A stretch of DNA of 32,159 nucleotides, from NCBI GenBank assembly GCA_026708965.1, contig JAPOTY010000028.1, positions 1 through 32,159 on the forward strand. Reading direction: 5' to 3'. Position 1 is the first letter of the stretch, and each line of letters begins with the position of its first letter. A program made the translations under genes and the position numbers. Under the pieces are notes generated by a model that had not been told where the DNA came from, ran no database searches, and was given only the letters and a program-made list of their open reading frames with translations. Shown piece by piece: positions 4,606-20,146 of this stretch. Origin of the DNA: Gammaproteobacteria bacterium (GTDB lineage: Bacteria; Pseudomonadota; Gammaproteobacteria; Steroidobacterales; Foliamicaceae).

Positions 4606-4799
4606 GCCCTGCTTTCCTCCACCCCTGTTGGAGGAGCGTTGAAGCAGGGATAGCGAAACCGAGCTAGGATGGCGGCTCCGCAAACACGCGCCGCTGAAGC
4701 TCTGCTTTCCTCCGCCCCTGTTGGAGGAGCGTTGAAGCAGGGATAGCGAAACCGAGCCAGGATGGCGACTCCGCAAACAGGGGCGGAGGAAAGCAGAGC
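4606..4799. repeat. Tandem variable-arm palindromic elements: one intact (4699-4799), one lacking its right arm (4606-4686)
   Basis: The intact copy has perfect 24-nt inverted arms at 4699-4722 and 4776-4799. They flank a 53-nt core with GGAGCGTTGAAGCAGGGAT and AACCGAGCCAGGATGGCG, ending in CTCC. A second copy of left arm plus core lies 93 bases upstream (4606-4686) with only a few substitutions. Its right flank (about 4687-4698) does not pair with its left arm. The cores match those at 12855-12895 and 20057-20117, but the arms are unrelated. The elements fill most of the gap between the helical-protein gene and ald. The rest of the gap (4800-4862) holds a TAAAAT at 4830-4835 that may be the ald -10. 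Confidence 0.9.
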
Positions 4800-4862
4800 G
4801 AGGGTACACGACCAAGCGCCGCGGAGCGGTAAAATCGCAGGCCTGTTCATAGGAATTCCAAT

Positions 4863-5984
4863 ATGCTGATCGGCGTGCCCAAAGAGATAAAGCCTGACGA
4901 GCACCGGGTAGGATTAAGTTTAAGCAGCGCCCGCGAACTGATCGAACACGGCCACCAACTCATGGTGGAAACCGGCGCCGGCGAGGGCCTGCGCCGCAGC
5001 GACGGCGACTACCGGGCCCTCGGCGCCCGCATCGCGGACAGCGCCGAGGACGTGTTCGCCAAGGCGGACCTGATCGTGAAAGTTAAGGAGCCGCAGGCCA
5101 GCGAATGCCGGATGCTGCGCGAGGGGCAGGTGCTGTTCACCTATCTGCACCTGGCGCCGGATCCGGGCCAGGCGCGCAGGCTCATGGAATCAGGCGTAAC
5201 CGCGATCGCCTACGAAACCGTCACCGACCGCCTCGGACAGCTGCCGCTGCTCGCGCCGATGAGCGAGGTGGCGGGCCGAATGGCGGTGCAGGCGGGCGCC
5301 CGCTGCCTGGAAACGGAAATGGGCGGCTGCGGCAAGCTGCTCGGCGGCGTTCCGGGCGTGCTGGCGGCCAACGTGGTGGTGCTGGGCGGCGGCGTGGTGG
5401 GCACCAACGCGCTGCGCATCGCGGTGGGCATGGAGGCGCGGGTGGTGGTGCTGGATAAATCGCTGGCGCGGCTGCGCGAGCTGGACCTGCAGTTCGGGGC
5501 GCGCCTCAACACGGTGTATTCCACGCGCTCGGCCATCGAGGAATACGTGGAGCAGGCCGACTTGGTGATCGGCGCGGTGCTGGTTCCGGGCGCCTCCACG
5601 CCCCGGCTCGTCTCCCGCGGCATGGTGGATGCGATGGCGGCCGGATCGGTGGCGGTGGATGTGGCCATCGACCAGGGCGGCACCTTCGAGACCAGCCGCC
5701 CCACCACGCACTCCGATCCCACCTTCATCCATCAAAACGTGGTGCATTACTGCGTGGCGAACATGCCGGGCGCGGTGCCCCGCACTTCCACGCAGGCGCT
5801 TAACAACGCCACGCTGCCGTTCGCGCTGGCTTTGGCCGACAAGGGCTGGCGCCAGGCCATGCGGGACGACCCGGGGCTGATGGCGGGGCTGAATGTCCAC
5901 GCTGGCCGGGTCACCAACGCCGCGGTGGCCGAGGCGCTTGACCACGCCTACACGCCGCCGGAGAATGCGCTCGATATCCATTAA
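4863..5984 (+). CDS. ald: Alanine dehydrogenase
   Basis: 373 residues, a typical length. It catalyses reversible NAD-dependent oxidative deamination of L-alanine to pyruvate and ammonia in the cytosol. The N-terminus MLIGVPKEIKPDEHRVGL carries the conserved substrate-binding Arg, with KVKEPQ and YLHLA following. The Rossmann segment is NVVVLGGGVVGTNALRIAVGM, and VAIDQGGTFETSRPTTHSDP holds the catalytic Asp region. AGGA (4851-4854) precedes the ATG. It stands after the palindromic repeats and seems to have its own promoter (TAAAAT at 4830-4835, weak -35). Pyruvate produced here could feed the E1/E2 dehydrogenase encoded 10 kb away. Confidence 0.95.
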   Translation: MLIGVPKEIKPDEHRVGLSLSSARELIEHGHQLMVETGAGEGLRRSDGDYRALGARIADSAEDVFAKADLIVKVKEPQASECRMLREGQVLFTYLHLAPDPGQARRLMESGVTAIAYETVTDRLGQLPLLAPMSEVAGRMAVQAGARCLETEMGGCGKLLGGVPGVLAANVVVLGGGVVGTNALRIAVGMEARVVVLDKSLARLRELDLQFGARLNTVYSTRSAIEEYVEQADLVIGAVLVPGASTPRLVSRGMVDAMAAGSVAVDVAIDQGGTFETSRPTTHSDPTFIHQNVVHYCVANMPGAVPRTSTQALNNATLPFALALADKGWRQAMRDDPGLMAGLNVHAGRVTNAAVAEALDHAYTPPENALDIH

Positions 5985-6008
5985 ACTCCGTTTCCCGATC
6001 CAAACCTC

Positions 6009-6368
6009 ATGCCTTCCAATACCCAACCTCATAAACGCCCCCGCCGCGCGCTGGGCAAGCGGCCCGCGTTTTACGGCGACGAGCGGCTGGATATGCTGTT
6101 CGCGATGCTGACCGCCCTGCTGGGCGAGGTGAGCGTGATCCGCGAGCGGCTGGACACGCACGAGCGCCTGCTGGAAAAGGCCGGGCTGTTCGGCAAGGAT
6201 GCCGTGGACGCCTGGCTGCCTGACGCGGAGGCCGAAGCGGAGCGCGGGCCGATCCGCGAGCGGATGATGAAGCGGGTGCTCCGCTACCTTGAGGAAGACA
6301 TGGAGCCCGCCGCGGCCGGCGGCGAACTCGACCGCATTTCAAAGGAGGTTCAACATGGTGATGTTTGA
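6009..6368 (+). CDS. Small charged protein of unknown function
   Basis: 119 residues with no recognised domain. The basic N-terminus (HKRPRRALGKRP) is followed by an amphipathic stretch with heptad-like spacing (LDMLFAMLTALLGEVSVIRERLDTHERLLEKAG), probably a short coiled coil, and then an acidic C-terminal half. Its last 14 bases overlap the following methyltransferase, whose strong Shine-Dalgarno lies inside this gene. This tight arrangement points to coupled expression and perhaps a partner role for the methyltransferase. No membrane segment or signal peptide was seen. Confidence 0.6.
   Translation: MPSNTQPHKRPRRALGKRPAFYGDERLDMLFAMLTALLGEVSVIRERLDTHERLLEKAGLFGKDAVDAWLPDAEAEAERGPIRERMMKRVLRYLEEDMEPAAAGGELDRISKEVQHGDV
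6341..6350 (+). promoter_or_regulatory. Near-perfect Shine-Dalgarno fixing the methyltransferase start
   Basis: AAAGGAGGTT ends four bases before ATG 6355 and is one of the strongest ribosome-binding sites in the window. It decides the start at 6355 over the longer open frame beginning at 6289. Confidence 0.75.
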
Positions 6369-7557
6369 AGCCCAGGGCGTGCGCCAGGAAACCATGCGCC
6401 GCGACGTATATCCGCGCCACGGCATGATGGCCGCCGCCAACCACGACGAACTGGCGGCGCAGAAGTACTTTCTCGGCTTGCGCGCCTACGCCAACGGGCG
6501 GCTGATGGCGCAAGCCGTCGAAGCATGCAATGACCAGATCGTTCCGCAAATGGGCGAGCGCGACCCGGAAAACGGGAAGGACCGCGCCGAGGTGCTGCGC
6601 AAGGCCGAACAGCTGCCCATCTTCCAGAACTGGGGAGCGCTGCTGCGCGCCTCCCAGGAGCTGATGTGGGACTACGTGGCCGACACCGTCGACCGGCAGC
6701 TCGACGAGCTGGAGGATAAATTCCGTTCCATCGAAAACCCGGCAGGCAGCCTCACGCTCCATCCGCAACTTCCCAACCCCGAGTATCTCGCCCTGGTTGA
6801 CCAGCATATTCAGCCGGGCGGCTATCTGCATGATGCCGGTGGCGAGGATGTGCGCGCCGGAGCGATTTACGACCGCGGCGCGGTGCTCTATGGCCTAGGC
6901 CGCGCCGGCGGACTCAACGACATGCGCGGCCACACGCTGTGCGCCTTCATACAAGACGCCTTCGGGGAAATGAAGCCGAAGCGGATTCTGGATCTGGGCT
7001 GCGGCGTGGGCCATGGCACGCTCGCGCTCACCGATCTGTTCCCGGAGGCCGAGGTGCATGCCATCGATATTGGCGGCGCCATGCTGCGCTACGCCCACGC
7101 CCGCGCGGAATCGCTGGGCAAGCCGGTGCATTTCCACCAGCAGGATGCCCGCCGCACGCTGTTCGACAACGAAAGCTTCGATATGGTCACGTCGGAAATC
7201 CTGTTCCATGAGAGCTCGCGCACGGCCATGCCGGCGATCCTGAAAGAGGCCCGCCGGGTGCTCAAGCCGGGCGGCGCGATGTGCAATCTGGAGGTGCCGT
7301 TGCGCTACAAGGGCATGGACATGGGTTCGGTCGTGGTTCGCGATTGGCAGAACTACTACAACGCGGAGCCTTTCTGGGGCTCGCTAGGCACGGTGGATCT
7401 GGAGAAGGCGATGGCGGACGCGGGATTCAAGCGTATCGTGAAAGGCTTCCAGCCGCGCACCAACAACTTCGCGGGCGAGCGGGGCCGCCTCACCCGCCAA
7501 GACCCCAGCGGCGGCATGCTCTCGCACTGGCTCGTCTTCGGCGGCCACAAGGAATAA
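6355..7557 (+). CDS. Class I SAM-dependent methyltransferase with an N-terminal helical domain
   Basis: 400 residues. The N-terminal ~190 residues (MVMFEAQGVRQETMRRDVYP..) form a helical region I do not recognise. The C-terminal half is a Methyltransf_11/25-type fold: motif I ILDLGCGVGHGTLALTDLFP (Asp213), acidic motif II VHAIDIG, FHQQDARRTLFDNESFDMV and LKEARRVLKPGGAMCNLEV. The substrate is unknown; small-molecule methylation, for example of a lipid, quinone or polyketide, is plausible. It overlaps the small upstream protein by 14 bases. It ends at a convergent junction with the TonB-dependent receptor, where two palindromic elements sit. Confidence 0.8.
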   Translation: MVMFEAQGVRQETMRRDVYPRHGMMAAANHDELAAQKYFLGLRAYANGRLMAQAVEACNDQIVPQMGERDPENGKDRAEVLRKAEQLPIFQNWGALLRASQELMWDYVADTVDRQLDELEDKFRSIENPAGSLTLHPQLPNPEYLALVDQHIQPGGYLHDAGGEDVRAGAIYDRGAVLYGLGRAGGLNDMRGHTLCAFIQDAFGEMKPKRILDLGCGVGHGTLALTDLFPEAEVHAIDIGGAMLRYAHARAESLGKPVHFHQQDARRTLFDNESFDMVTSEILFHESSRTAMPAILKEARRVLKPGGAMCNLEVPLRYKGMDMGSVVVRDWQNYYNAEPFWGSLGTVDLEKAMADAGFKRIVKGFQPRTNNFAGERGRLTRQDPSGGMLSHWLVFGGHKE

Positions 7558-7561
7558 CCCG

Positions 7562-7606
7562 CCAGCCGAAGCTTCTTTGCGCGTTCCCCTCCCGCAGGAG
7601 ACGCAA
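7562..7606. repeat. Orphan half of a palindromic element
   Basis: The stretch CCAGCCGAAGCTTCTTTGCG and the following arm-like sequence through GGAGACGCA resemble the left side of the element at 7773-7882, displaced by 202 bases (CCAGCCG at 7562 and 7764). No matching right arm or core follows. Directly after it comes GGCGCTTCGATTCGCCC (7614-7630), a short motif also found in reverse orientation near other elements. Confidence 0.6.
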
Positions 7607-7626
7607 GGCGTTTGGCGCTTCGATTC

Positions 7627-7733
7627 GCCCACTGCTTGCTTCCTTCTTCCGGGAGACGCATGGACCATCCATGGGCTTGGTTCCGCCATCCCTGGCTCCA
7701 CATACTCCCGGAAGAAGGAAGCAAGCAGTGGGC
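7627..7733. repeat. Variable-arm palindromic element A1
   Basis: Perfect 29-nt inverted arms at 7627-7655 and 7705-7733 enclose a 49-nt core (7656-7704) with GGTTCCGCCATCCCTGGCTC. This is the core in the orientation opposite to 12855-12895. Arms end inward in CGGGAG/CTCCCG. The whole element recurs almost unchanged at 12679-12785. It lies between the convergent methyltransferase and TonB-receptor genes and could act as a bidirectional transcript end. Confidence 0.95.
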
Positions 7734-7772
7734 TTGCGGGGTGCCGATCCTTGGGGGTCTGCGCCAGCCGGA

Positions 7773-7882
7773 GCCTGTTTGCGCGTTCCCCTCTCGCGGG
7801 AGGCGCATGAACCCATCCATGGGGCTTGGCGGCGACATCCCTGTCGCCGACACTCCCGCGAGAGGGGAACGCGCAAACAGGC
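7773..7882. repeat. Variable-arm palindromic element B1
   Basis: Perfect 30-nt inverted arms at 7773-7802 and 7853-7882 enclose a 50-nt core (7803-7852). The core begins GCGCATGAACCCATCC and contains its own small palindrome (CGGCGAC..GTCGCCG). The arms are nearly the same as those of 12825-12925 but differ at two positions that change on both arms together. The right arm is followed by GCGAACCCGAAGCG. It ends 20 bases before the stop codon of the reverse-strand TonB-dependent receptor. Confidence 0.95.
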
Positions 7883-7901
7883 GAACCCGAAGCGAAGCGT
7901 A

Positions 7902-10340
7902 TTAGAAGGCGGCGGCCAGCTTAAGACCCACTTCGCGCTTGTACGGCAGAGGCGCGAAGGTCTTGCGGTGGGGCAGGCCGAATATGCTGGTGGTGCCGCC
8001 TGCCGTGAGGTAGCTTAAATCATTCGTCAGGTTATTGGCGTACAGCTCAACCGAGAAGGTGTCGCCAAAGTCCGCATGCAGCCGGGCGTTGATCTTCCAA
8101 TGGCCTTCCACCGAGTTGTAGTTGAAATTATCGATATAGAACTGCCCCTGGTAAATTCCATCAACCCGCATCCACAAGCCGTTGGCCATGCCGATCAGCG
8201 AATCCAGCTGGAGCACCGCGGACAGGCTCCCGGTCCATTCCGGGATATAGCGCGGCCGCCCGCCGGTGGCGGAAATCTGCTCCCCGACGCTCAGCGTTGG
8301 AGGCGGCGCAAGCACTGCCGTGGCCACCGAACCGGTGCCGGCGAAATCGGTGAACTCCACATCGTTGAAAGTCACGCCGCCGCTTAAGCCAAACCACTCG
8401 CTCAGCATCAGATCGAACTCGGCTTCCAGGCCGGTGATCTCGGCATCGCCGGGAATATAGGCCGCGACAAACAGCGGCGCCGGACTCAACTCGAAGAAAG
8501 TCTGGTTCTCCCAATCCATGAAGTAGGCGGAAAGCGCGTAGTCCAGCCAGCCGCCCACGCGCTGCTTGAAGCCCGCCTCGAAAGCCGAAAGCGCCTGCTT
8601 GGGGGTGAAGTCGCCAAGAGCCAAGGGCACCCCCGTGGCGGCGCCGTAGTCCTCCGCATTGGTGTCGTTGCCCTGAAGATTGCTTCTTGAGTAATGGGCG
8701 TAGAGATTGGCGTTTTCCGAAGGCTGCCAGGAAATAATCAGGCGCGGCATGAAGGCGCTGTATTTCTGGTCCACATCCACGGTCGCGGTGGCGTCGATCC
8801 GTTGCGCCACCGAAACGCCGTCATAGACGATGGTTTGGGTGTCGGTGTTCCAGCGCCCCTCCAGCGACAGCGTCCACCGGTCGCTGAGCGCATAGTCCAG
8901 CGAGCCGAACACGCCGAAATTCTCGCCATCCTGGAAATTAAGGTTGTTGGCGGCGCCGAATTGCGCGAAGTCCGTCTCCCGGTTGTCCTGCGAGTAGTAA
9001 CTGGCGCCAACCATGTAGTTGAACCGCTCCCCGGCCTGCGGCGTATAGCGGAGCTCCGTATAGGTATCGCGCACCCAGCCAGCCCGCCCGGTCAGCCAGG
9101 GGCTGCCGGCGCCCCGGAAGAAAAATGCCGCCGGCGTGCCGAAGCTGTTGTCAAGCAGCCGCCAGCTTGAGGACTCCCCGCGAGCGAATTGAGCGCTTAG
9201 GACCGCCTGGTTCGCCAACTCGTATTCGCCGGACACGTCAACCCGCCACAGCTCATAGGTGTTGCCCAGCCCGTCCGGCGGGTCAACGATAGCGAGATCT
9301 TCCATTTCCGGCGGCAGAGTCGTAACGAAGGACCAGGAATTGGAGAACTGGAACAGCGGCGTGCTGTCCGTGATCCTGCCAACCTCGGAAAGATTCGGCG
9401 GCACCGCGTCCCAATCGGGAACCGAGCCGCAAAACAGGCTGCGCACGGATTGCGACAGATCCGTGGTGAAAGTGCCGCCGTTGCCGCCGCCCACGGGCCG
9501 GATGGCGCCGGAATAGCTGCGGTTGCAGCTTCCGGGCGCGTCCGGACCGACTTGCGACTGAAGCTGCATGGTGTCGTCGGAATCCACATAGAAGCCCGAA
9601 ACTTGGAAGCTGAAGGTTTCCGATACCTCGAACGTGGCCAGGCCGGTCATGGCGGTGGTGTTCTGCTCGCCGTTGGGGTCGCCGTTGCGGAAGTGGTAGT
9701 TGGCGCCCACCTTCTCCTGCATCACCGCCACCCGCACGCCCACGCTGTCGCTGAGCGGCCCGCCCAGCGCGGCGGTCACGTTATGGCTGCTATCGTCCGA
9801 TCCCGACCACGACAACGATACCTTGCCGCTCACCTCGTCGCCCGGCCTGGCGGGAATATAGTTGACCGCGCCGGCAAAGGTATTGCGGCCGAAAAACGCG
9901 GTTTGCGGCCCTTTCAGAATCTCCACCCGTTCCAGGTCGATCAGCGGCAGGATGCCGGCGCCGTCGGAGATATAGCCGCCGTTCCAGAACACCGAACCGG
10001 CCCGCGAGGCAGGGCTTTCCACCTGAACGCCCAGCCCGCGGAAGCGGATATTGGGATTATTCCGCCCGCCTCCTCCGCCTTGGCTGATATTCTGGAAAGT
10101 GAAGCCGGTGGTGACCGCGGACAGCTGCTCGATGGTGTTCATGCCCAGTTCGTCGAGGTCGTCCTGGGTGTAGGCCGATACCGACAACGGAATCTCCAGC
10201 ACCGACTCGTCGCGCTTGCGCGCGGTGACCACGATTTCCTCGAATTCCTGAGCGGCTATATCCTGAATGCCCATCAGGGCGGCGGCGCCAACGGCCGCGG
10301 CGGCGGAAAGCCGACGGAAGAAGCAGGTGCGAACGGTCAT
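7902..10340 (-). CDS. TonB-dependent outer membrane receptor
   Basis: 812 residues from ATG 10340; the longer open frame to 10406 was rejected because a signal peptide begins at MTVRTCFFRR. Residues 1-30 form that signal peptide (cleavage near IAA|QE), followed by a TonB box EEIVVTA (34-40) and a plug domain with IEQLSAVTTGFTF, NIRFRGLG and VEILKGPQTAFFGRNTFAGAVN. A 22-strand barrel region ends in the outer-membrane C-terminal Phe (REVGLKLAAAF). It would take up a large substrate across the outer membrane with TonB/ExbBD energy. The ligand is unknown and no substrate-processing genes adjoin it. An unusual run of five glycines precedes RNNPNIRFRG. Confidence 0.95.
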   Translation of the reverse strand: MTVRTCFFRRLSAAAAVGAAALMGIQDIAAQEFEEIVVTARKRDESVLEIPLSVSAYTQDDLDELGMNTIEQLSAVTTGFTFQNISQGGGGGRNNPNIRFRGLGVQVESPASRAGSVFWNGGYISDGAGILPLIDLERVEILKGPQTAFFGRNTFAGAVNYIPARPGDEVSGKVSLSWSGSDDSSHNVTAALGGPLSDSVGVRVAVMQEKVGANYHFRNGDPNGEQNTTAMTGLATFEVSETFSFQVSGFYVDSDDTMQLQSQVGPDAPGSCNRSYSGAIRPVGGGNGGTFTTDLSQSVRSLFCGSVPDWDAVPPNLSEVGRITDSTPLFQFSNSWSFVTTLPPEMEDLAIVDPPDGLGNTYELWRVDVSGEYELANQAVLSAQFARGESSSWRLLDNSFGTPAAFFFRGAGSPWLTGRAGWVRDTYTELRYTPQAGERFNYMVGASYYSQDNRETDFAQFGAANNLNFQDGENFGVFGSLDYALSDRWTLSLEGRWNTDTQTIVYDGVSVAQRIDATATVDVDQKYSAFMPRLIISWQPSENANLYAHYSRSNLQGNDTNAEDYGAATGVPLALGDFTPKQALSAFEAGFKQRVGGWLDYALSAYFMDWENQTFFELSPAPLFVAAYIPGDAEITGLEAEFDLMLSEWFGLSGGVTFNDVEFTDFAGTGSVATAVLAPPPTLSVGEQISATGGRPRYIPEWTGSLSAVLQLDSLIGMANGLWMRVDGIYQGQFYIDNFNYNSVEGHWKINARLHADFGDTFSVELYANNLTNDLSYLTAGGTTSIFGLPHRKTFAPLPYKREVGLKLAAAF

Positions 10341-10371
10341 ATTTGATTCCCTCGGAGTGAATTCCTTGAGT

Positions 10372-10394
10372 ATTCCCGGCAAAAAAGCGGGAAT
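10372..10394. other. Stem-loop in the TonB-receptor leader
   Basis: ATTCCCG (10372-10378) pairs with CGGGAAT (10388-10394) around an A-rich 9-nt loop, so the reverse-strand transcript carries a U-rich loop. It sits 32 bases upstream of the receptor start. A reverse-strand TATACT (10416-10421) further upstream could be the -10. The stem could bind a regulator or shape the leader RNA; nothing identifies which. Confidence 0.3.
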
Positions 10395-10577
10395 TGAGTT
10401 TCCCAATGCTGGCTGAGTATATGCTGATCGGCGCGGCGCGCAAACTCGCGCCTGAATGCGCTCGCATCAATCCGCGGCGCTGGTTCGCCCGGCGCCGGGC
10501 GGCAAACGGTTGAACGCGCGGCCATGCCCACGGATAGAATTTCCGCCTTGATTCACGGTCGATCCAGTCCAGCATCC

Positions 10578-11618: not shown

Positions 11619-11625
11619 CGCGATC

Positions 11626-12612: not shown

Positions 12613-12639
12613 CCAAACGCCACACATTTCGCCCCCCCC

Positions 12640-12678
12640 CTCTTCCGGCAGGCGCATGCAATCTGGGCGCTTCGATCC
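12640..12678. repeat. Orphan half element and motif before element A2
   Basis: CTCTTCCGGCAGGCGCATG resembles an arm end joined to the start of a core, without a partner. It is followed by GGCGCTTCGATCCGCCC (12666-12682), one mismatch from 7614-7630. The same order (half element, motif, element A, element B) occurs at 7562-7882. Confidence 0.5.
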
Positions 12679-12785
12679 GCCCACTGCTTGCTTCCTTCTT
12701 CCGGGAGACGCATGGACCCTCCATGGGCTTGGTTCCGCCATCCCTGGCTCCACATACTCCCGGAAGAAGGAAGCAAGCAGTGGGC
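12679..12785. repeat. Variable-arm palindromic element A2
   Basis: Perfect 29-nt arms at 12679-12707 and 12757-12785 are identical to those of A1, with a 49-nt core (12708-12756) that differs at one base. It is the first element of the second A-B cassette, 5052 bases from A1. It lies between the convergent xdhC-like and carbonic-anhydrase genes. Confidence 0.95.
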
Positions 12786-12824
12786 TTGGGAGTGCCGGTC
12801 CTTTTAGGGTCTGCGCCAACCAAA

Positions 12825-12925
12825 GCCTCTATGCGCGTTCCCCTCTCGCGGGAGCGTTGGAGCCATGGATGGCGGAACCGAGCCAAGGATGGCGTCTCCC
12901 GCGAGAGGGGAACGCGCATAGAGGC
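12825..12925. repeat. Variable-arm palindromic element B2 with inverted core
   Basis: Perfect 30-nt arms at 12825-12854 and 12896-12925 flank a 41-nt core (12855-12895) reading CGTTGGAGCCATGGATGGCG then GAACCGAGCCAAGGATGGCG. Compared with B1, the outer arm has CTAT in place of GTTT, with the matching change on the other arm. The core is in the opposite orientation. GCGAACCCGAAGCG follows (12924-12937), as it does after B1. Confidence 0.95.
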
Positions 12926-12973
12926 GAACCCGAAGCGTCCTTCGCGGGATTGAGGCGGCTTGGGGCGGGAGGG

Positions 12974-13489
12974 TTAGGCTGGGCGGAGCTGGGCGCGGAA
13001 GCGGCGGGCGTTGCGGACGTAGATGCGGGCGCCGCGCGCCACCTCGGCGCGTTCTTCGTCGCTGAGCAAGCGAACCTGGCGGCCCGGCACGCCCATGATG
13101 AGGCTGCCCGGCGGGTAGGAGCGGCCTTCCGGCAGCAGCGCGCCGGCCGCCACTAGGCTATGCGCGCCAACGCGCGAGCCGTTCAGCAGGATGGCGCCCA
13201 TGCCAACGGTGCAGCCGTCTTCCACCGCGCAGCCGTGCAGAATCACGCGATGCCCCACGGTCACATCCTCGCCAACCGCGACGGGGAAGCCCGGATCCGT
13301 GTGCGCCACCGAGCCGTCCTGGATATTGCTGCGGGCGCCAATGCGGATAGGCTCGTTATCGCCGCGCAGCGCGGCACCGAACCATACGCTGCTGTGCTCG
13401 CCGAGTTCAACATCGCCGATCACCGCCGCGTCCGGGGCGATGAAAAGCGCCGCCGAGCGCGGCGCGAGATCGCCCAAGCGGTAAATCAC
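12974..13489 (-). CDS. Gamma-class carbonic anhydrase-like hexapeptide protein (YrdA/PaaY type)
   Basis: 171 residues of left-handed beta-helix sequence with hexapeptide periodicity and a C-terminal helix. The three zinc-binding histidines of the gamma-carbonic-anhydrase family are in place: SVAHTD (His63) and VTVGHRVILHG (His80 and His85). Relatives form trimers; some hydrate CO2, PaaY has thioesterase activity, and many are untested. I chose GTG 13489 because it overlaps the gpmA stop as GTGA and GGGAG lies upstream. The alternative ATG at 13531 would add 14 atypical residues read from within gpmA. It is the last gene of the reverse-strand central-carbon block. Confidence 0.85.
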   Translation of the reverse strand: MIYRLGDLAPRSAALFIAPDAAVIGDVELGEHSSVWFGAALRGDNEPIRIGARSNIQDGSVAHTDPGFPVAVGEDVTVGHRVILHGCAVEDGCTVGMGAILLNGSRVGAHSLVAAGALLPEGRSYPPGSLIMGVPGRQVRLLSDEERAEVARGARIYVRNARRFRAQLRPA

Positions 13490-14184
13490 TGCGACGCTCC
13501 CAAGTCGATGCGCGCCGGCGCCCGCAGGCACGCGCCGAAGCGGTAAAGGATCGGCGCGCCGGTGGGAATTTCCAACCGCACGATATCGCGGTCGGAAATA
13601 TTTTCCAGCAGTTTCATCAGCGCCCTCAGGCTGTTGCCATGCGCCGACACCAGCGTGCAGCGGCCAGCTTCGATATCCGCCGCGATGCGGCTTTCCCAGT
13701 AGGGCCGGACCCGGTCCAGCGTGTCCTTGAGCGACTCCGCGGCCGGCGGCGCCTCAAGATCGGCGTAGCGGGGATCGTTGCGCGGATGGCGGGAGTCGTC
13801 CGGCTCCAGCGGCGGCGGCGGCGTGGCGTAGGAACGGCGCCATATCCTCACCTGCGCCTCGCCGTGCTTGGCCATGGTCTCGGCCTTGTTCAGCCCCTGC
13901 AGCGCGCCGTAGTGGCGCTCGTTCAAACGCCAGCTTCGATGCACCGGGACCGCGCCGCCGCCCAGCTCGCCAAGCATCAGCTTCAGCGTCCGCTCGGCGC
14001 GCAGCAGCATGGAGGTGTGCGCCACCTCGGGCGCCAGGCCCGAGGCGCGCAGCAGGCGGCCGGCATGGCGGGCCTCTTCCTCGCCCGCAGGGCTTAGGTC
14101 CACATCGGTCCAGCCGGTGAAGCGGTTCTCGCGGTTCCACAGGCTTTCGCCGTGGCGGCAGAGGATCAGCGCGCCCAGCGCCAC
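13486..14184 (-). CDS. gpmA: 2,3-bisphosphoglycerate-dependent phosphoglycerate mutase
   Basis: 232 residues, close to the usual length for dPGM. It interconverts 3- and 2-phosphoglycerate in glycolysis and gluconeogenesis through a phosphohistidine. Visible motifs are LCRHGESLWNRENRFTGWTDVDLS with the phosphorylated His11, LNERHYGALQGLNKAE, WRRSYATPPPPL and the second catalytic His in VSAHGNSLRALMK. It lies 69 bases after the E2 gene on the same strand, and its stop overlaps the carbonic-anhydrase start by four bases. Clustering with the E1/E2 genes puts the glycolysis end next to pyruvate oxidation. Confidence 0.95.
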   Translation of the reverse strand: MALGALILCRHGESLWNRENRFTGWTDVDLSPAGEEEARHAGRLLRASGLAPEVAHTSMLLRAERTLKLMLGELGGGAVPVHRSWRLNERHYGALQGLNKAETMAKHGEAQVRIWRRSYATPPPPLEPDDSRHPRNDPRYADLEAPPAAESLKDTLDRVRPYWESRIAADIEAGRCTLVSAHGNSLRALMKLLENISDRDIVRLEIPTGAPILYRFGACLRAPARIDLGASQ

Positions 14185-14253
14185 GTTATTCCGATAGCGC
14201 CGGAGCCAAGCGCTCGCAAGGCCCGGCTGCCGACCTGCCGGCGCAGGAGGGCT

Positions 14254-15489
14254 TCACGAGGCCTGCATCAGGTCCGCCACCACCGCGCTCAAAAACCGCG
14301 CCGCTTCGGCGCCGGCCACGCAGCGGTGATCGAAGGTGAGCGAAAGCGGCAGCATGCGCCGGATCGCGATCGCGCCGCTCAGCGCCACCACCTCCTCGCG
14401 AGCCGCGCCGCTGCCCAGGATGGCCACGGTGGGCGGCACCATCAGCGGCGTGGCGTAGCGCGAAGAGCCGCCAGCGATATTCGACAAGGTGATCGTGTAG
14501 CCGCGCACTTCCTCGGGCGTGAGCGTGCGCTCCGCGCCGGCCTGCTTCAGCCGCGCCACCTCGCCGCGCAGCTCGTCGAGGCTGCGCTGGTGGGCATTCG
14601 GGATCGATGCCACGATCAGGCCGTGGGGCGTATGCATGGCAAGCCCCATGTTCACGTTTTCGGACATGGACAGCAAGCCGGCTTCGGCGCTGAAAGTGCC
14701 GTTCAGGCGCGGTTCGGCGCGGCAGCCGGCCACCATGGCGCGGATCAGCCTGGGAGTGAAATCGCGCGGCCGCTTCCAGTCGTGGATATCGGCATCGTCC
14801 ATTACCGTGCACAAGGCCGCTTCGCTGTGCGCGGCGGTCATGCTCTTGAACATGGCCCGGCGCGGGCCGGTGAGTTTTTCCTGGCCCGAAGCGAGGGCAT
14901 CAGGGGCGAGGGCGGCATCTTGCCCTCCACGAGAGCCGGGAGCTTTCGCTGCCGGGCCGGACGAGGGAGCGCCCCGTTGGCCCGCTCCGTTTTGCCCAGC
15001 GGCCTTTGCGATATCTTTCGCCGTGATCCGGCCCTGCGGCCCGGAGCCTTCGATCAACGCGATATCCACTCCCAATTCGCGGGCCAGCGCGCGCACCGAA
15101 GGCGCGGCCTTCACCCGCCGCCCGCGCGGCGCCGCAGAGCTGGATTGCGTGGTGTCGCTGAGCACCAGTCCGCTGGCCGGCAGCTCGCCCACCACGCCGG
15201 GCGCCTTGCCTTCGGAGGAGGGCGCAAGCCCTCGTTCCCGGGCATCGTCGTGCTGGCCCGTGTCGAAGCGCGCCAGCACGTCGCCCACCGGAATCACGTC
15301 GCCCGGCTCGCCATGCAGCGAGAGCACGCGGCCCGACACCGGCGAGGGCACTTCCACCACGGCCTTGTCGGTCTCCACCGACAGCAGGGGCTGATTCAAT
15401 TCGATATGCTGATCGGCGCCCACATGCCACTCGACGATTTCCGCTTCGGTCAATCCCTCGCCCAAATCCGGCAATTTGAACTCTTTCAT
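14254..15489 (-). CDS. 2-oxoacid dehydrogenase E2 component (dihydrolipoamide acyltransferase)
   Basis: 411 residues from ATG 15489 (MKEFKLPDLGEGL). One lipoyl domain (about 1-76) carries the lipoylated Lys42 in VETDKAVVEVP. A Pro/Ala/Gly-rich linker leads to a peripheral subunit-binding domain (KAAPSVRALARELGVDIALI, then GPQGRITAKDI). The catalytic domain (about 185-411) ends with FDHRCVAGAEAARFL. It transfers the acyl group from lipoyl to CoA in the E1-E2-E3 complex. Catalytic His388 is present, but the usual Asp of HRxxDG is Ala392. Some gammaproteobacterial E2 proteins have other residues there. It lies 16 bases after E1beta; no E3 (lpd) gene is nearby. The substrate could be pyruvate or branched-chain oxoacids. 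Confidence 0.9.
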   Translation of the reverse strand: MKEFKLPDLGEGLTEAEIVEWHVGADQHIELNQPLLSVETDKAVVEVPSPVSGRVLSLHGEPGDVIPVGDVLARFDTGQHDDARERGLAPSSEGKAPGVVGELPASGLVLSDTTQSSSAAPRGRRVKAAPSVRALARELGVDIALIEGSGPQGRITAKDIAKAAGQNGAGQRGAPSSGPAAKAPGSRGGQDAALAPDALASGQEKLTGPRRAMFKSMTAAHSEAALCTVMDDADIHDWKRPRDFTPRLIRAMVAGCRAEPRLNGTFSAEAGLLSMSENVNMGLAMHTPHGLIVASIPNAHQRSLDELRGEVARLKQAGAERTLTPEEVRGYTITLSNIAGGSSRYATPLMVPPTVAILGSGAAREEVVALSGAIAIRRMLPLSLTFDHRCVAGAEAARFLSAVVADLMQAS

Positions 15490-15505
15490 TGAATATTTCC
15501 CATCA

Positions 15506-16483
15506 TCAGCTCCCCACGCTCTCATGCACCGCATCCTTGATGCGCTGCACACTGGGAATATAGCCGTATTCCATCCGCGCCAGCGGCGGCACCGCGTCGT
15601 ATCCCGCCACCCGCGCGACCGGCGCCTCCAGGCTGTAGAGGCCCTCGGAAGCCAGGATCGCGGCGATTTCCGCGCCCACGCCGCCGCTCACCGCCGCCTC
15701 GTGAACAATCATCGCCCGACCGGTGCGGGACACCGACTCAAGCAGCGTGTCCTTGTCCAGCGGGCTCACCGTAGCCATATCGATCACCTCGCAGTCCACG
15801 CCCTCTTCCGCCAGCTCGGCGGCGGCGTTCCACGTTTCCAGCGCCGAGGCGCCCCACGAAATAAGCGTCACGTCCGTGCCCTCGCGGGTCACGAAGGCGT
15901 GATCCAGCGGCAGGCCCTCGCCGTTGTCCGGCACTTCCTGGCGGAAGGCGCGATAGACGCGCTTGGGCTCTAAGAACACCACCGGGTCGGGATCGCGGAT
16001 GGCGGACAACAGCAGCCCGTAGGCGCGCACCGGCGAGGACGGGATCACCACCCGCACCCCCGGCATGTGGGCGAATAGCGCCTCGGTGCTCTCGGAATGG
16101 TGCTCCGGGGCGCGGATGCCGGTGCCGAAGGGCGCCCGCAGCACCATCGGGCAGGTCAGCCGTCCGCGGGTGCGGTTGCGCAGGCGGCTGGCGTGGCTGA
16201 TGATCTGGTCCAGCGCCGGATAGATAAAGCCCATGAATTGGATTTCCGGCACCGGCTTGAGGCCCTGCGAAGCCATGCCCACGGCCAGGCCGGCAATCAT
16301 CGCCTCGGCCAGCGGCGTGTCGAACACCCGCTCGGCGCCGAAGCGCTCCTGCAAGCCCAAGGTGGCGCGGAACACGCCGCCGTTCACGCCCACATCCTCG
16401 CCGAACACCACCACGCTGTCGTCGTGCGCCATTTCCCAGGTCAAGGCCTGGTTGACGGCTTCGACTAGAGTGAGGCTGGGCAT
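15506..16483 (-). CDS. pdhB: 2-oxoacid (probably pyruvate) dehydrogenase E1 beta subunit
   Basis: 325 residues. It pairs with E1alpha to form the thiamine-diphosphate heterotetramer that decarboxylates the oxoacid and acylates the E2 lipoyl arm. Typical features are VVVFGEDVGVNGGVFRAT, RVFDTPLAEAMIAGLAVGMA, EIQFMGFIYPALDQI, GIRAPEHHSESTEA and a transketolase C-terminal domain (VIDMATVSPLDKDTLLESV, then VHEAAVSGGVGAEIAA). Its ATG overlaps the E1alpha stop by one base (TGATG). Pyruvate is favoured by the glycolytic neighbour gpmA, but a branched-chain oxoacid role cannot be excluded from sequence alone. Confidence 0.85.
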   Translation of the reverse strand: MPSLTLVEAVNQALTWEMAHDDSVVVFGEDVGVNGGVFRATLGLQERFGAERVFDTPLAEAMIAGLAVGMASQGLKPVPEIQFMGFIYPALDQIISHASRLRNRTRGRLTCPMVLRAPFGTGIRAPEHHSESTEALFAHMPGVRVVIPSSPVRAYGLLLSAIRDPDPVVFLEPKRVYRAFRQEVPDNGEGLPLDHAFVTREGTDVTLISWGASALETWNAAAELAEEGVDCEVIDMATVSPLDKDTLLESVSRTGRAMIVHEAAVSGGVGAEIAAILASEGLYSLEAPVARVAGYDAVPPLARMEYGYIPSVQRIKDAVHESVGS

Positions 16484-17562
16484 CAGCCGTGCTCGGCAAC
16501 CGGGTATCGGCGGGCGATCTCGCGCTGCGCCGCGAGCGTGGCGGGCATGTTGCCGAACTGGTGCTCAAAGATATCCTCGAGCTGCGGCCTAGGCGTGTTC
16601 AGATACACCTCCACTTCCGCCTCCACTTCCGCTTCCAGCTCCTTGATCAGCGCCTGTTCCCGCTCATCGCTCCAGCCGAAACGCTCCTCCATCAGGCGCC
16701 GCGTGCGCCCCAAAGGCTCGCGGCGGCCCGCCTCTTCCACTTCGCTAGCTGCGCGGTAGCGGGTGGCGTCGTCCGCCGTGGTGTGGTCCTCCAGCCGGTA
16801 GCTCAGGGCCTCGATCAGCGCCGGGCCGCCCCCGGAGCGGGCCTTGCGCAGGGCTTTATCCAGCACATGGCGCACCGCGATCACGTCGTTGCCGTCCACC
16901 TGTTCGCCCGGAATGCCGGCCGCGATCGCCTTCTGCGCCAGTGTGGCGGCGGCGGTCTGGCCTTCCACCGGCATGGAGATGGCGTAGCGATTGTTGGTGA
17001 CCATGAACACCACCGGCAAGCGCATCGCGCCGGCGGCGTTGAGGGCCTCGTAGAACGCGCCTTCGGAGGTGGCGCCGTCGCCGCAGAGGGCCACGGCGCA
17101 ATTGGGCTGGCCGCGCATTTTGATGGCCAGCGCCGCGCCGGCCGCATGCAGGCATTGCGTGGCGATCGGCACGCAATAAGGAAAGTCGCGGCGCGGGCCG
17201 TCCCAGTTATGGCCGCGCTCGTCGCCGCCCCACACGGCAAGCAGCTGGCTCATGCGCACGCCCCGCCAAATCACCGCGCCGTGTTCGCGGTATGAGGGCG
17301 CCAGCACGTCTTCCGGCTGCATCGCGGCGGCCACCCCGATCTGGGCGGCTTCTTGGCCCCGGCTGGAGGCGATGGTGCCCACTTGGCCGGTGCGTTGAAG
17401 ATTGATGCAGCGCCGGTCGAAGACCCGGGTGAGCATCATGAAGCGATACAGGCGCGCCATCTGGTCCGCATCGGCGGCAAATTCGGGCAATTCTTTCTGG
17501 GCCTTGCCGTGCTCGTCTAAGAACTGCGTATATGTGATTTCAAACTGGGCTACTACGGACAT
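16483..17562 (-). CDS. pdhA: 2-oxoacid (probably pyruvate) dehydrogenase E1 alpha subunit
   Basis: 359 residues from ATG 17562 (MSVVAQFEITYTQFL); the longer frame upstream would run into the moaC promoter. The ThDP-binding motif GDGATSEGAFYEALNAAG (Asp162) through VTNNRYAIS is complete. SSRGQEAAQIG, APSYREHGA and the phosphorylation-loop-like YRLEDHTTADDATRYR are also typical. It begins the reverse-strand run E1alpha-E1beta-E2-gpmA-carbonic anhydrase, whose spacing fits one operon. It is divergent from moaC with a 78-bp gap that must hold both promoters. Confidence 0.88.
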   Translation of the reverse strand: MSVVAQFEITYTQFLDEHGKAQKELPEFAADADQMARLYRFMMLTRVFDRRCINLQRTGQVGTIASSRGQEAAQIGVAAAMQPEDVLAPSYREHGAVIWRGVRMSQLLAVWGGDERGHNWDGPRRDFPYCVPIATQCLHAAGAALAIKMRGQPNCAVALCGDGATSEGAFYEALNAAGAMRLPVVFMVTNNRYAISMPVEGQTAAATLAQKAIAAGIPGEQVDGNDVIAVRHVLDKALRKARSGGGPALIEALSYRLEDHTTADDATRYRAASEVEEAGRREPLGRTRRLMEERFGWSDEREQALIKELEAEVEAEVEVYLNTPRPQLEDIFEHQFGNMPATLAAQREIARRYPVAEHG

Positions 17563-17625
17563 CTTAAAACTCGATTCGGGACGGGAAGTATATCCCGGCG
17601 GCCTCGCTCCCGAAACGGCGGAAAC

Positions 17626-17631
17626 TATAAT
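17626..17631 (+). promoter_or_regulatory. Consensus -10 TATAAT just before moaC
   Basis: A perfect TATAAT ends 9 bases before the moaC ATG (17641). If used, the transcript would start at or within a few bases of the start codon, giving a leaderless mRNA. No good -35 is present 16-18 bases upstream, and no Shine-Dalgarno lies between the hexamer and the ATG. Confidence 0.45.
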
Positions 17632-17640
17632 TCGCGGGCG

Positions 17641-18117
17641 ATGCTTACGCATATCGACTCACAACAGCGGGCCGGCATGGTGAACGTGGCGGACAAGGCC
17701 GTGACCCTCCGCACCGCCCGGGCGCGCGCCAGCGTGGCGCTGCCTCCCGAGGCGGCGGCCATGGCGGCGGACGGCGAGATCGCCACCCGCAAGGGCCCCG
17801 TTTTCCAAACCGCCATCATTGCCGGCACCCAGGCCGCCAAGCGAACCCACGAGCTCATTCCCTTCTGCCATCCGCTCAAGCTGGAGGGCTGCCGGATCGA
17901 AGTGGATCTTAAGGACGAGGAAGTGGTGATCGAATGCGCGGTGCGGGTCACCGATAAAACCGGGGCGGAAATGGAGGCGCTCACCGGGGCTGCGGTGGCG
18001 GCGCTCACGATTTACGACATGCTCAAATCGGTGTCGCGCGGAATGGTTATCCGCCAAGCGCGCCTGCTCGGCAAGACGGGCGGAAAAAGCGATGACACCA
18101 ACGAGCAGGACGGCTAG
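17641..18117 (+). CDS. moaC: Cyclic pyranopterin monophosphate synthase (MoaC)
   Basis: 158 residues. It converts the 3',8-cyclo-GTP product of MoaA to cyclic pyranopterin monophosphate, the first stable molybdopterin intermediate. Conserved segments are LTHIDSQQRAGMVNVADK, ATRKGPVFQTAIIAGTQAAKRTHELIPFCHPL with His77, and VTDKTGAEMEALTGAAVAALTIYDMLK including catalytic Lys and Asp positions. No moaA, moaD or moaE is in the window. The stop overlaps the mobA start by one base. A consensus -10 only 9 bases upstream suggests a leaderless message. Confidence 0.95.
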   Translation: MLTHIDSQQRAGMVNVADKAVTLRTARARASVALPPEAAAMAADGEIATRKGPVFQTAIIAGTQAAKRTHELIPFCHPLKLEGCRIEVDLKDEEVVIECAVRVTDKTGAEMEALTGAAVAALTIYDMLKSVSRGMVIRQARLLGKTGGKSDDTNEQDG

Positions 18118-18731
18118 TGCAAACAGGCGAAGCCGAAGCGCCGCTGTGCGGGCTGGTGCTGGCGGGGGGCTTGAGCGCCCGCTTCGGCAGCGACAAGGCG
18201 GCGGCGCAAATCGGCGGCATGAGCCTGCTGGAACGCGCGGTGCGGCTGCTGGCCTCATGCCTTGGCGAGGTTTGGGTGTCGGTGCGCGCCGAGCAGGCCG
18301 CCGACCGCTTGCGCTCGCGTTTCCGCTGCTTGGCGGACCGCCATCCCGGCCGCGGGCCGGCCGCGGGGCTGGAGGCCGCCCACGCGCAGGCGCCGGATCG
18401 GGCCTGGCTGGCGCTGGCCTGCGATCAGCCGGGGCTTTCGGCCAATGAAATCAGGCGCTTGATTGCCGAACGCGACGCGGATTGCGCGGCCACCGCCTTC
18501 TGCAATCCCGGTTCCGGGGCGCCGGAACCATTGTGCGCCATCTACGAACCGGCTACCCTTGCGGGCTTGGCGGAGGCCGTCGCCGCGGGAGCGGCGCTCT
18601 CGCTCCGGGATTACTTGGGGGGGCGGCCGCTGAAACTGATGCCACTGGAAATTACGAATGTCAACAACTATGAGCAATTCCGTTCTTTTGCACACAAGAC
18701 AACGCCAAGGCGAGCCTGTGGGCGGGAATGA
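18117..18731 (+). CDS. mobA: Molybdenum cofactor guanylyltransferase (MobA)
   Basis: 204 residues from GTG 18117. It attaches GMP from GTP to molybdopterin to make bis-MGD precursors. The nucleotidyltransferase signature [20 protein letters not shown] is present, with [25 protein letters not shown] (metal-binding Asp) and the C-terminal [10 protein letters not shown], equivalent to the family's NINTPEDL. About 16 residues extend past that natural end and overlap folE by 74 bases. The first 23 bases after the start resemble the tail of a palindromic element, so the N-terminus MQTGEAEAP seems to be element-derived. A bis-MGD enzyme should exist elsewhere in the genome. Confidence 0.9.
18118..18139. 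repeat. Element relic inside the mobA 5' end
   Basis: TGCAAACAGGCGAAGCCGAA and the next two bases differ from the right end of element B1 and its flank (7873-7894) at two positions only. No arm partner or core accompanies it. It forms codons 1-8 of mobA. Confidence 0.5.
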
Positions 18732-19308
18732 ATCCGAACGCCCGACGCGGGCCGAGGCGGAAGAGGCGGTCCGCACCCTGCTGAGCTGGGCCGGCGACGA
18801 TATTGGCCGCGAAGGCCTGGTGGACACGCCCAAGCGCGTGGTGCGCGCCTACGAGGAGTGGTTCAGCGGCTACTCGGAGGATCCCTACGAGTTTATGAGG
18901 CGCACCTTCAGGGAAGTGAACGGCTACGACGAGATCGTGGCGCTTACCCATATCGACTTCAACTCCCACTGCGAGCACCATATCGCTCCGATTATCGGCA
19001 AGGCGCATGTGGCCTATCTGCCGCGCGACAAGGTGGTGGGCATCAGCAAGCTGGTGCGGGTGGTGGATGCTTACGCGCACCGCCTGCAGGTGCAGGAGAA
19101 GCTCACGGCGCAGATCGCCGATTGCATCGCCAAGGTGCTGGAGCCGCGCGGCGTGGCGGTGGTGGTCGAGGCGGCGCACGAGTGCATGACCACGCGCGGG
19201 GTGGGCAAGCGCAACGTGAGCACGGTCACCAGCCGGATGCTGGGGGCATTCCGCGACGATGCGCGCGCGCGCGCTGAGTTCCTGGCCTTGATCGAGCGCG
19301 GGCGTTGA
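18658..19308 (+). CDS. folE: GTP cyclohydrolase I (FolE)
   Basis: 216 residues from ATG 18658; GTG 18718 is a shorter alternative that reduces the overlap with mobA to 14 bases. It converts GTP to 7,8-dihydroneopterin triphosphate, the entry to folate and other pterins. Zinc and catalytic motifs are complete: [25 protein letters not shown] (Cys and His ligands), [25 protein letters not shown] and the second Cys in [32 protein letters not shown] is the usual N-terminal block. Grouping with moaC and mobA puts GTP-derived pterin enzymes together; the pteridine reductase at 86-823 could act on its downstream products. Confidence 0.93.
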
Positions 19309-19361
19309 TAATCCAAGGCCTGTTGGCGCTAAACTCGTAAGCCCTCGCTGGCCGCGGTGCA

Positions 19362-19826
19362 TTGCTGTTGGGTCATGAAGTTCGCACGATAGACGACGCG
19401 CGCGCGCTGGAGGGCGTGGAAGTGGGCGTTTCCGGCTGGATCCTGGTGGATCAGGACCGAATCGACCGGTTCGCGCGGGCCACGGAGGACTTCCAGTGGA
19501 TCCATGTGGACCGCGAGCGTGCCGCCCGCGAGCTCGAGGCTGGCGCCACCATCGCCCACGGCTATTTAACGCTGTCGCTGATTCCGGGCGCCACTGAGCG
19601 TTTCGTGGTGTTTCCCGCGCTCAAAAGAGCGATTAACTGGGGCCTTAACAAGGTGCGCTTTTCCAGCATGGTGGCGTGCGGCAGCCGGGTGAGGGTGCGC
19701 ACCACGGTGCTGCAGGCGCGGGCCCGGGCCGGCGGCATTCAGATGACCTGCCGACACAAAATCGAGATCGAGGGCCAGCGAAAGCCCGCCTGCACCGCCG
19801 AAACCCTCGCCCTCTACATGCTTTGA
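19362..19826 (+). CDS. MaoC/NodN-like (R)-specific enoyl-CoA hydratase family protein
   Basis: 154 residues of hot-dog fold. The hydratase signature is ERATEDFQWIHVD-like: FARATEDFQWIHVDRERAA with the Asp and His pair, then GATIAHGYLTLSLIP. The NodN subgroup is suggested by ALEGVEVGVSGWILVDQDRIDRFA. The expected activity is hydration of a trans-2-enoyl thioester, but many NodN-like members are uncharacterised. The start is uncertain: TTG 19362 keeps the family's N-terminal segment, whereas GTG 19422 has a better Shine-Dalgarno (GGAGGG, 7 bases away) but would truncate it. It ends at a convergent junction with two palindromic elements. tesB and the CoA transferase nearby also handle acyl-CoA. 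Confidence 0.75.
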   Translation: MLLGHEVRTIDDARALEGVEVGVSGWILVDQDRIDRFARATEDFQWIHVDRERAARELEAGATIAHGYLTLSLIPGATERFVVFPALKRAINWGLNKVRFSSMVACGSRVRVRTTVLQARARAGGIQMTCRHKIEIEGQRKPACTAETLALYML

Positions 19827-19885
19827 TCCGTGAAGAGAGAGGGCTTCCAAGCCTTCCTTTCAGCACGGGCGCACTGAAGCTGGCA

Positions 19886-19989
19886 AGCCCTTGTTGGCCG
19901 ATCTTGTCTCTACGGAGGCGCCATCCTGGCTCGGTTCTGCCATCCCTGGCTCCAACGCTCCGTAGAGACAAGATCGGCCAACAAGGGCT
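19886..19989. repeat. Variable-arm palindromic element D
   Basis: Perfect 32-nt inverted arms at 19886-19917 and 19958-19989, the longest in the window, flank a 40-nt core (19918-19957) containing GCCATCCTGGCTCGGTTCTG then CCATCCCTGGCTCCAACG. Inner arm ends are GGAG and CTCC. Arms are unrelated to A, B, C or E. It lies 60 bases past the MaoC-like gene. The leading gap 19827-19885 shows no further feature beyond a few short inverted matches. Confidence 0.95.
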
Positions 19990-20027
19990 AAGCATCAAAG
20001 ATTGGCGCTGGAAACGGCACTGCGGAA

Positions 20028-20146
20028 GCCCCGGTTTTGCCCGTCGCTTCCGGGAGCGTTGGAGCCAGGATGGCGGAACCAAGCCAGTGCGCGCCAATAG
20101 CTTGGCGGGCACAGCGCCTCCCGGAAGCGACGGGCAAAACCGGGGC
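20028..20146. repeat. Variable-arm palindromic element E with an expanded core
   Basis: Perfect 29-nt arms at 20028-20056 and 20118-20146 flank a 61-nt core (20057-20117). The core starts CGTTGGAGCCAGGATGGCGG and then carries about 26 extra bases with a small hairpin (CGCCAA..TTGGCG, 20092-20107) in place of the second GGATGGCG. It is 39 bases from element D and ends 26 bases before the reverse-strand DUF1499 gene's stop. Confidence 0.93.

Follow-up and report, generated by a model that had tools for sequence, protein, structure and literature searches.

Described elements with the same core

YPAL/RU-2, the Yersinia palindromic element, is 130-169 bp long, and the Y. pestis RU-2 sequence printed in an earlier report contains GCGCCAAGGATGGCGC and TACATGGATGTATTTACGGCGTC, which make up the twin-hairpin core seen in the elements described here, with flanks that are partly complementary (PMC2759123). 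YPAL was reported to be multicopy and intergenic, with filled and empty sites, and perhaps to affect upstream transcripts (PMC2229807). According to N. Delihas, it forms a single sequence family whose internal inverted repeats are short. Unlike YPAL, the family found in the window (the whole stretch of DNA analyzed, 32,159 nucleotides) has arms that are mostly 28-30 bp long, near perfect, and variable between groups of copies. The twin-hairpin core of the YPAL/RU-2 superfamily (...GGATGGC...TACANGGATGTATTYACGGCGT) is present in the elements, RU-2 being compared as a printed sequence.

The Rfam model RF02770, Ysr224 (Yersinia sRNA 224), matches a locus of a same-class genome (L291) over the element with 82.4 bits (cut-off 70), which points to Gammaproteobacteria as the class of the genus. 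Weak matches below threshold lie on the elements of L281, L285, L289, L284, L283, L280, and L148, among 20 loci searched. At gathering scores no Rfam model, Ysr224 included, matches the window, and assignment of the window to a known Rfam family was rejected. The Ysr224 model represents the strand opposite the GGA loops, and the arms are not modelled as a free stem. Judged by sequence comparison, the family is not undescribed, since YPAL/RU-2 and Ysr224 carry the same core; the sequence-only reading, which knew of no described family of this design, was in part wrong.

REP, BIME, and REPIN elements (GTAG- and CGTC-tagged) were reported as small palindromes that come in pairs and lie mainly between genes that converge or run in the same direction (PMC3733652). 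The window family is likewise small, palindromic, found in paired copies, and mostly in such gene contexts, with stems of 28-30 bp versus 6-13 bp in REP (PMC3733652). The REP tags GTAG (hairpin of 6-13 bp) and CGTC (8-9 bp) lie at the foot of the hairpin. GGAG/CTCC and GCGTC of the present elements may or may not be counterparts of these tags, the stem being different in kind. CsrB/RsmZ-type RNAs are encoded by few dedicated sRNA genes, whereas the present family consists of ~120 short copies with at most two candidate sites each, scattered on either strand. What these CsrA-binding RNAs share with the window family is repeated hairpins with A(N)GGA loops (PMC4347634).

Copies in the window and in other genomes

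All seven elements of the sequence-only reading were confirmed by inverted-repeat search, with the arm lengths it had given (Table 1); a partial and a half copy have to be added to its list. The arms of A and D are the same, B and E have arms with two differing positions, and large differences exist only between the types A/D, B/E, C, F, and G, so that the description of the arms of C, A, B, D, and E as largely unrelated holds between types only. The string quoted as the common core did not stand, since B has another hairpin stem and the second hairpin of G is replaced; the shared part is the hairpins with A(N)GGA loops. In related genomes, counterparts of element C occupy the interval between the same gene pair.

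Table 1. Palindromic elements and partial copies in the window; the strand is the one that bears the GGA loops.
Feature	Position	Strand	Description	Evidence
Half element	1..51	+	right half, truncated by contig end	R1 39.2 bits, E 2.4e-8; R2 31.9 bits
C0	4606..4686	+	partial; left arm and core kept, right arm mostly gone	sequence; weak R1 match 4626-4686, 13 bits
C	4699..4799	+	24 perfect bp (31 bp at 94%)	inverted-repeat search, R1
A	7627..7733	-	perfect 29-bp arms	inverted-repeat search, R1
B	7773..7882	-	perfect 30-bp arms; compared with sibling copies, core reversed against arms and flanks	inverted-repeat search, R1, sibling comparison
D	12679..12785	-	perfect 29-bp arms, as in A	inverted-repeat search, R1
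E	12825..12925	+	perfect 30-bp arms, close to those of B; short core, two GCC-ANGGAU-GGC hairpins	inverted-repeat search, R1, sequence
F	19886..19989	-	perfect 32-bp arms; flanks suggest inverted core	inverted-repeat search, R1, core/flank comparison
G	20028..20146	+	perfect 29-bp arms; longer GGA-less hairpin replaces second GGA hairpin	inverted-repeat search, R1, sequence

The search for copies in the genome and its relatives, as proposed in the sequence-only reading, found at least 120 distinct places in the genome that match the palindrome structure, fragments included (150 of 1537 candidates scored; 125 rows minus five giving the same place on the other strand), and at least 34 matches in every one of the nine genus genomes (99 candidates scored per genome). 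These numbers exclude chance as the origin of the window palindromes, which are a real, dispersed repeat. The core-only model R2 was made from cores of the window genus and relatives (36 rows, picked for at least 3 bp in both hairpins) and detects the family in 32 of the 398 genomes sampled from the phylum, with a single match each in three of them (G061, G364, and G232). As 14 candidates were scored per genome in this sample, its copy numbers, like those of the two sets above, are lower bounds. The comparison of empty sites, also proposed earlier, showed filled and empty states at matching sites among related genomes. Elements come in pairs and composites. A plasmid search with the core as query gave no match. 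A scan for paired GGA hairpins in 80 named loci yielded two unlike places. On the same 80 loci, model R1 found a plain long stem in L065 (E 1e-7) and, in that locus as well, a weaker one; the plain stem indicates that R1 by itself can score arms without a core.

Paired change of the arms and inversion of the core

Arms of at least 28 bp are present in 94 of 109 elements. In these 94, arm pairing is 96-100% up to bp 28 and drops to 78% at bp 29, 38% at bp 30, and 9% at bp 31; over the first 27 bp, 2538 pairs include 28 mismatches. The high pairing within 28 bp is partly a selection effect, since the elements were found by inverted repeats, which favors well-paired copies. A search of the fetched loci independent of the arms gave 83 twin-hairpin matches, 77 inside such an inverted repeat and six outside, and recovered one full copy with imperfect arms (L201) that the inverted-repeat search had missed. 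For four of the more distant loci (23 in all), pairing of the flanks does not exceed that of shuffles. Across the genome, arm sequences are not random: the 5' arm of the GGA strand is rich in pyrimidines and in most cases begins with GCC and ends with GGAG, much as had been noticed for the ends. GGAG...CTCC flanks the core in most copies, and GCGTC precedes the right arm in many.

The arms change in pairs. Cells changed on both sides number 356 in a 41-row alignment, versus a mean of 98 in shuffles. Nearest-copy pairs with up to eight differences show 156 paired and 31 unpaired changes (49 pairs with members in common, hence not independent), and the 11 reciprocal nearest-copy pairs show 36 and three. 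Where nearest copies differ at a single arm position (ten pairs), both arms were changed in eight. Transversions make up 70 of the 156 paired changes (45%), and T·G/G·T mismatches (13) are not in clear excess over C·A/A·C (7, p 0.26). Upstream of ald, the arms differ at five of 24 positions among four genomes and are paired throughout, except for one unpaired state in G003. An IS-derived MITE, whose arms would be conserved terminal repeats, was rejected, because the arms vary between copies by paired changes and there are no conserved terminal inverted repeats.

The reversed core of element B matches two siblings at 49 and 47 of 50 positions, versus 10 of 50 when unreversed; flanks and arms are shared by B and these siblings, apart from a single arm position in one of them. 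A conflict between core and flank orientation (margin > 3) was observed in 10 of 103 elements.

Template switching is described in the literature as homogenizing arms and inverting loops (PMC8794818, PMC8604942). DNA template switching between the arms fits the combination of paired one-step changes, many transversions, no clear favoring of G·U, and inversion of the core. One arm would be copied from the other by hairpin-templated switching at replication, which would keep the arms complementary and sometimes flip the core. Many arm sequences would thereby be tolerated, provided that both arms match. The core is enclosed by a stem, usually of 28-30 bp, whose sequence is peculiar to a single copy or to a few related ones. 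Alternatively, selection at the RNA level may maintain the stem, as an RNase III site or for mRNA end protection, the paired changes being compensatory evolution in large populations. The possible action of YPAL on upstream transcripts (PMC2229807) and the scarcity of elements between divergent genes (see below) are in line with such selection, but intermediates are rare even at a single difference, G·U is not clearly above A·C, nearly half of the paired changes are transversions, and the core of B is inverted; such selection is considered unlikely. The sequence-only reading had left homogenization and RNA selection side by side, and of the two, homogenization by template switching is better supported.

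Core hairpins, gene context, and possible recognition

Both A(N)GGA hairpins (at least 3 bp each) are present in 83 of 109 cores, versus 1 of 2180 shuffles; one of 110 inverted repeats was left out of this count as two merged elements. One or both are missing in the other 26, and two hairpins are thus not essential to every copy. The loops are constant and the hairpin stems covary across families, in rows chosen for the presence of both hairpins. Minimum-energy folds of several elements give a core pairing other than the two hairpins. In shape, the A(N)GGA(N) loops look like the CsrA/RsmA binding site, for which a SELEX consensus RUACARGGAUGU with GGA in a hairpin loop was reported (PMC4347634). 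The segment GTACAGGGATGT of some relatives fits this consensus, the full consensus being a sequence feature of those relatives only. Of the 32 genomes with a core match, 31 encode CsrA, versus 189 of the 366 without one (Fisher p 8e-8), an association confounded by ancestry, since 29 of the 32 belong to one class in which CsrA is common. In the order-level set, CsrA is encoded in 33 of 39 genomes, elements being present in only 12. A literature search found no link between YPAL and CsrA, and no publication brought up by searches on palindromic repeats together with CsrA concerns the present family by title or abstract. Searches of the literature with DNA strings gave unrelated papers among 20 of 105 matches.

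Around the elements of the genome itself, 32 gene pairs are convergent, 13 divergent, and 56 tandem (110 inverted repeats, nine of them lacking a gene call on at least one side, and three tandem cases without an assigned strand). Since divergent pairs are avoided, many elements may be transcribed. The fetched loci gave 18 sense, 19 antisense, 18 convergent, and 12 divergent cases (73 taken; two incomplete loci and four without a twin core left out). Gene strands were assigned by a codon-usage script in the own genome and by a cruder GC-frame script in the fetched loci. In tandem contexts the GGA strand is sense in 47 cases and antisense in 43. Host genes therefore make no preferential use of it, and a CsrA site in the sense 3'-UTR of host genes is not supported by orientation.

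The lower number of elements between divergent than between convergent genes would also be expected of ordinary intrinsic terminators that share the core by chance. On the GGA strand, however, no U-run follows the stem, 96 of 101 elements having 0-2 T among the first 8 nt; on the opposite strand, three of 101 have at least five T and 18 have four. The core is also common to families of a class. Intrinsic terminators were rejected for lack of the U-run, and this explanation is highly improbable.

The hairpins might instead be recognized by a transposase or a comparable enzyme acting on single-stranded DNA, in the manner of REP and RAYT, their likeness to CsrA sites being coincidental. Such recognition agrees with the absence of strand preference relative to genes, with the BIME-like pairs and composites, with sites occupied or empty among related genomes, and with the GGAG...CTCC bracket of most cores. 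Against it, none of the nine genus genomes has a Y1_Tnp match at E 0.001, in a search that covered Y1_Tnp only, and the loop and closing pairs of some relatives fit the SELEX consensus for CsrA more closely than a DNA tag requires. A RAYT-driven REP was rejected for want of the Y1 transposase; the wider possibility of a DNA-recognizing enzyme is rather unlikely, if still worth considering.

The elements are probably a dispersed, non-coding palindromic mini-element related to YPAL/RU-2, with template-switched arms and a CsrA-type twin-hairpin core, the CsrA part being the weaker. The earlier proposal that the core is the recognized part may stand in the form of twin CsrA-type hairpins, recognition itself being putative. 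More tentatively than the switching of the arms, the core may be kept because transcripts containing it bind CsrA, and the copies would then form a scattered pool of putative CsrA sites. An extended version, which appears doubtful, has class-wide selfish palindromes spreading via their twin CsrA sites. There would be about a hundred transcribed CsrA decoys per rich genome, copy number would be coupled to the Csr network, and the arms would be constantly rewritten by template switching, with almost any arm sequence surviving.

Relative to YPAL as described, the near-perfect arms of 28-30 bp that differ by copy group and yet change together are, on the sequences compared, new. Long perfect stems that change in sequence while keeping their pairing have long been puzzling in RNA evolution, and about a hundred copies in one genome, together with sister genomes, provide a natural data set in which loop inversions and single steps of arm copying could be counted. 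Should the core bind CsrA, the functionally obscure repeat YPAL/Ysr224 and its class-wide relatives would add a dispersed layer to the Csr/Rsm network.

Copies of the element in the window and in related genomes

The seven palindromes described by the sequence-only reading were all recovered at the same coordinates by an inverted-repeat search of the window. The description of their arms as largely unrelated holds between arm types, but elements A and D have identical arms and those of B and E are nearly identical. The A-type and B-type elements occur as a fixed pair separated by about 40 bp (window 7627-7882 and 12679-12925; also loci L239-L242, L097 and L093), and travel together as in a BIME. 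The arm-like remnants suggest partial deletions of further copies. Contigs of the draft genome begin or end within an element at the start of the window and in C6, C44, C47, C27 and C20, which indicates that the assembly breaks at palindromes.

Copies and remnants of the element in the window (strand: that on which the core hairpins show A(N)GGA loops, the GGA strand)
Feature	Position	Strand	Remark
Half copy	1-51		contig start
Partial copy	4606-4686
C	4699-4799	+
Arm-like remnant	7572-7606		adjoins complete element; by eye
A	7627-7733	-
B	7773-7882	-	core reversed
Arm-like remnant	about 12640-12670		adjoins complete element; by eye
D	12679-12785	-
E	12825-12925	+
F	19886-19989	-
G	20028-20146	+

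The sequence-only reading had proposed a covariance search in which the stem is free to vary and the core forms the loop. Such a model, built from 41 elements, matched at least 120 separate places of the own genome, counting fragments (125 rows at E ≤ 0.01, five being the same place on the opposite strand). It had matches in 12 of 39 genomes, the own included: the nine genus members each had at least 34, one genome of family f6 at least 40, and two of family f12 at least 3 and at least 5. A core-only model matched 32 genomes in a sample of 398 from across the phylum, namely 29 from the own class, two from family f75, and G232; the match in G232 is single and weak, and G061 and G364 also have one match each. 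Of 24 loci outside the own genome (L280-L303), 23 could be centred; a locus-specific stem in the flanks beat all 50 shuffles at 19 of these and failed to do so at four.

The proposed comparison with empty sites revealed both states. Upstream of ald, the arms in G000, G002, G003 and G004 are recognisably one stem differing at 5 of 24 positions, the sole unpaired state being position 12 in G003; G006 carries an oppositely oriented element whose arms are different, and G001 none. At the A/B site, the copy in G008 (L243:6320-6459) has perfect arms of 46 bp, where 28-30 is usual, and that in G003 has other arms; the element is absent from G006, G005 and G001, whose spacers there are short, and the core is absent from the spacer of G004. 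The elements thus come and go.

Paired change of the arms and inversion of the core

The arm data set comprised 110 inverted repeats from 86 loci, and pairing statistics were calculated on 109. In the 94 of these 109 with detected arms of at least 28 bp, pairing is 96-100% to bp 28 from the inner end and falls to 78% at bp 29, 38% at bp 30 and 9% at bp 31; this selection accounts in part for the high pairing over those 28 bp, but not for the sharp end. Matches to the two core hairpins, found without regard to arms, fall inside such an inverted repeat in 77 of 83 cases. The other six comprise L201, whose arms are imperfect, a half copy, a degenerate place that was matched twice, and two matches of dissimilar sequence, probably due to chance. 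The flanks outside the arms are conserved and non-palindromic (left ...CAGCTGAA, right GAAGG...), so the element reaches beyond the stem.

Changes in the two arms go together. In the alignment, 29 of 36 pairs are altered on both sides, with 356 cells changed on both sides; shuffles gave a mean of 98, and sliding the partners gave no more than 61. Nearest copies differing at one arm position differ in both arms in 8 of 10 pairs. At up to eight differences, 156 paired and 31 unpaired changes were counted (49 nearest-copy pairs, with members shared between pairs), and 11 reciprocal pairs gave 36 and 3; neighbours were chosen by summed distance, a choice biased against paired changes. Transversions account for 70 of the 156 paired changes. 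Stems maintained by selection on an RNA would be expected to tolerate G·U and to change by way of it. Of the 28 mismatches in 2538 arm pairs, T·G/G·T make up 13, C·A/A·C 7 and other types 8; T·G/G·T is not clearly above C·A/A·C (equality not rejected, p 0.26), a point against RNA selection.

The core of element B is reversed, while its arms and flanks match the sibling copies L242 and L239: 47 and 49 of 50 core positions are identical when reversed, and 10 of 50 each when unreversed. Scored by flank profile, core and flanks are opposite in 10 of 103 elements (margin > 3), agree in 87 and are unclear in 6. The arms are probably best explained by template switching between inverted repeats, since it is described both to homogenise arms and to invert the loop (PMC8794818, PMC8604942). 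Switching between the arms would keep them matched and would sometimes flip the core.

Core hairpins, CsrA and known relatives

On one strand, 83 of 109 cores carry a pair of hairpins whose loops read A(N)GGA(N), 21 carry one and 5 none (3-bp rule); among 2180 shuffled cores, one had both. About a quarter of copies have one or both hairpins shortened, altered or exchanged for a longer hairpin lacking GGA, and some deficient copies, such as element A, fall one pair short of the rule. The innermost stem pairs covary around a constant loop, in rows selected for the presence of both hairpins. At L196, L198, L204, L212, L217 and others, one GGA hairpin is replaced or extended by a longer one, GCGCGCCAATGGCTTGGCGCGC or GAGCGCCGATGTCCCGGCGC, as if the hairpins were exchangeable modules. 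The second hairpin is GTACAGGGATGTA in some f12 and f6 elements; it agrees with RUACARGGAUGU, the SELEX consensus for CsrA, in which GGA sits in the loop (PMC4347634).

One CsrA is encoded in the own genome, and CsrA is present in 220 of the 398 genomes. It occurs in 31 of 32 genomes positive with the core-only model (the exception is G232) versus 189 of 366 negative ones (p 8e-8), an association inflated by shared ancestry. In the order-level set 33 of 39 genomes have it, among them all 12 that bear elements, so it does not discriminate there. Where the adjoining genes are in tandem, 29 own elements have the GGA strand in sense and 24 in antisense, and in other genomes (73 loci) the numbers are 18 and 19; at 47 to 43, no preference was found. 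The Rfam Yersinia sRNA family Ysr224 runs on the strand opposite to the GGA strand, and single-element folds often give another core pairing than the two hairpins. For these three reasons, binding by CsrA is graded as plausible and the hairpins as candidate sites.

The kind of element is already known, as the Yersinia palindromic element YPAL/RU-2 and as Ysr224. The Y. pestis sequence of YPAL/RU-2 printed in PMC2759123 carries a core of the same kind. PMC2229807, PMC2267715 and PMC2847712 describe YPAL as a mini-insertion present in multiple copies, and PMC12112432 reports Ysr224 copies as differently expressed sRNAs of Y. ruckeri. None of the publications searched mentions both YPAL and CsrA. 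As far as these searches reach, three things are new: the core is spread across the class, its sequence can be read as a pair of CsrA sites, and the arms drift together, with inversion of the core.
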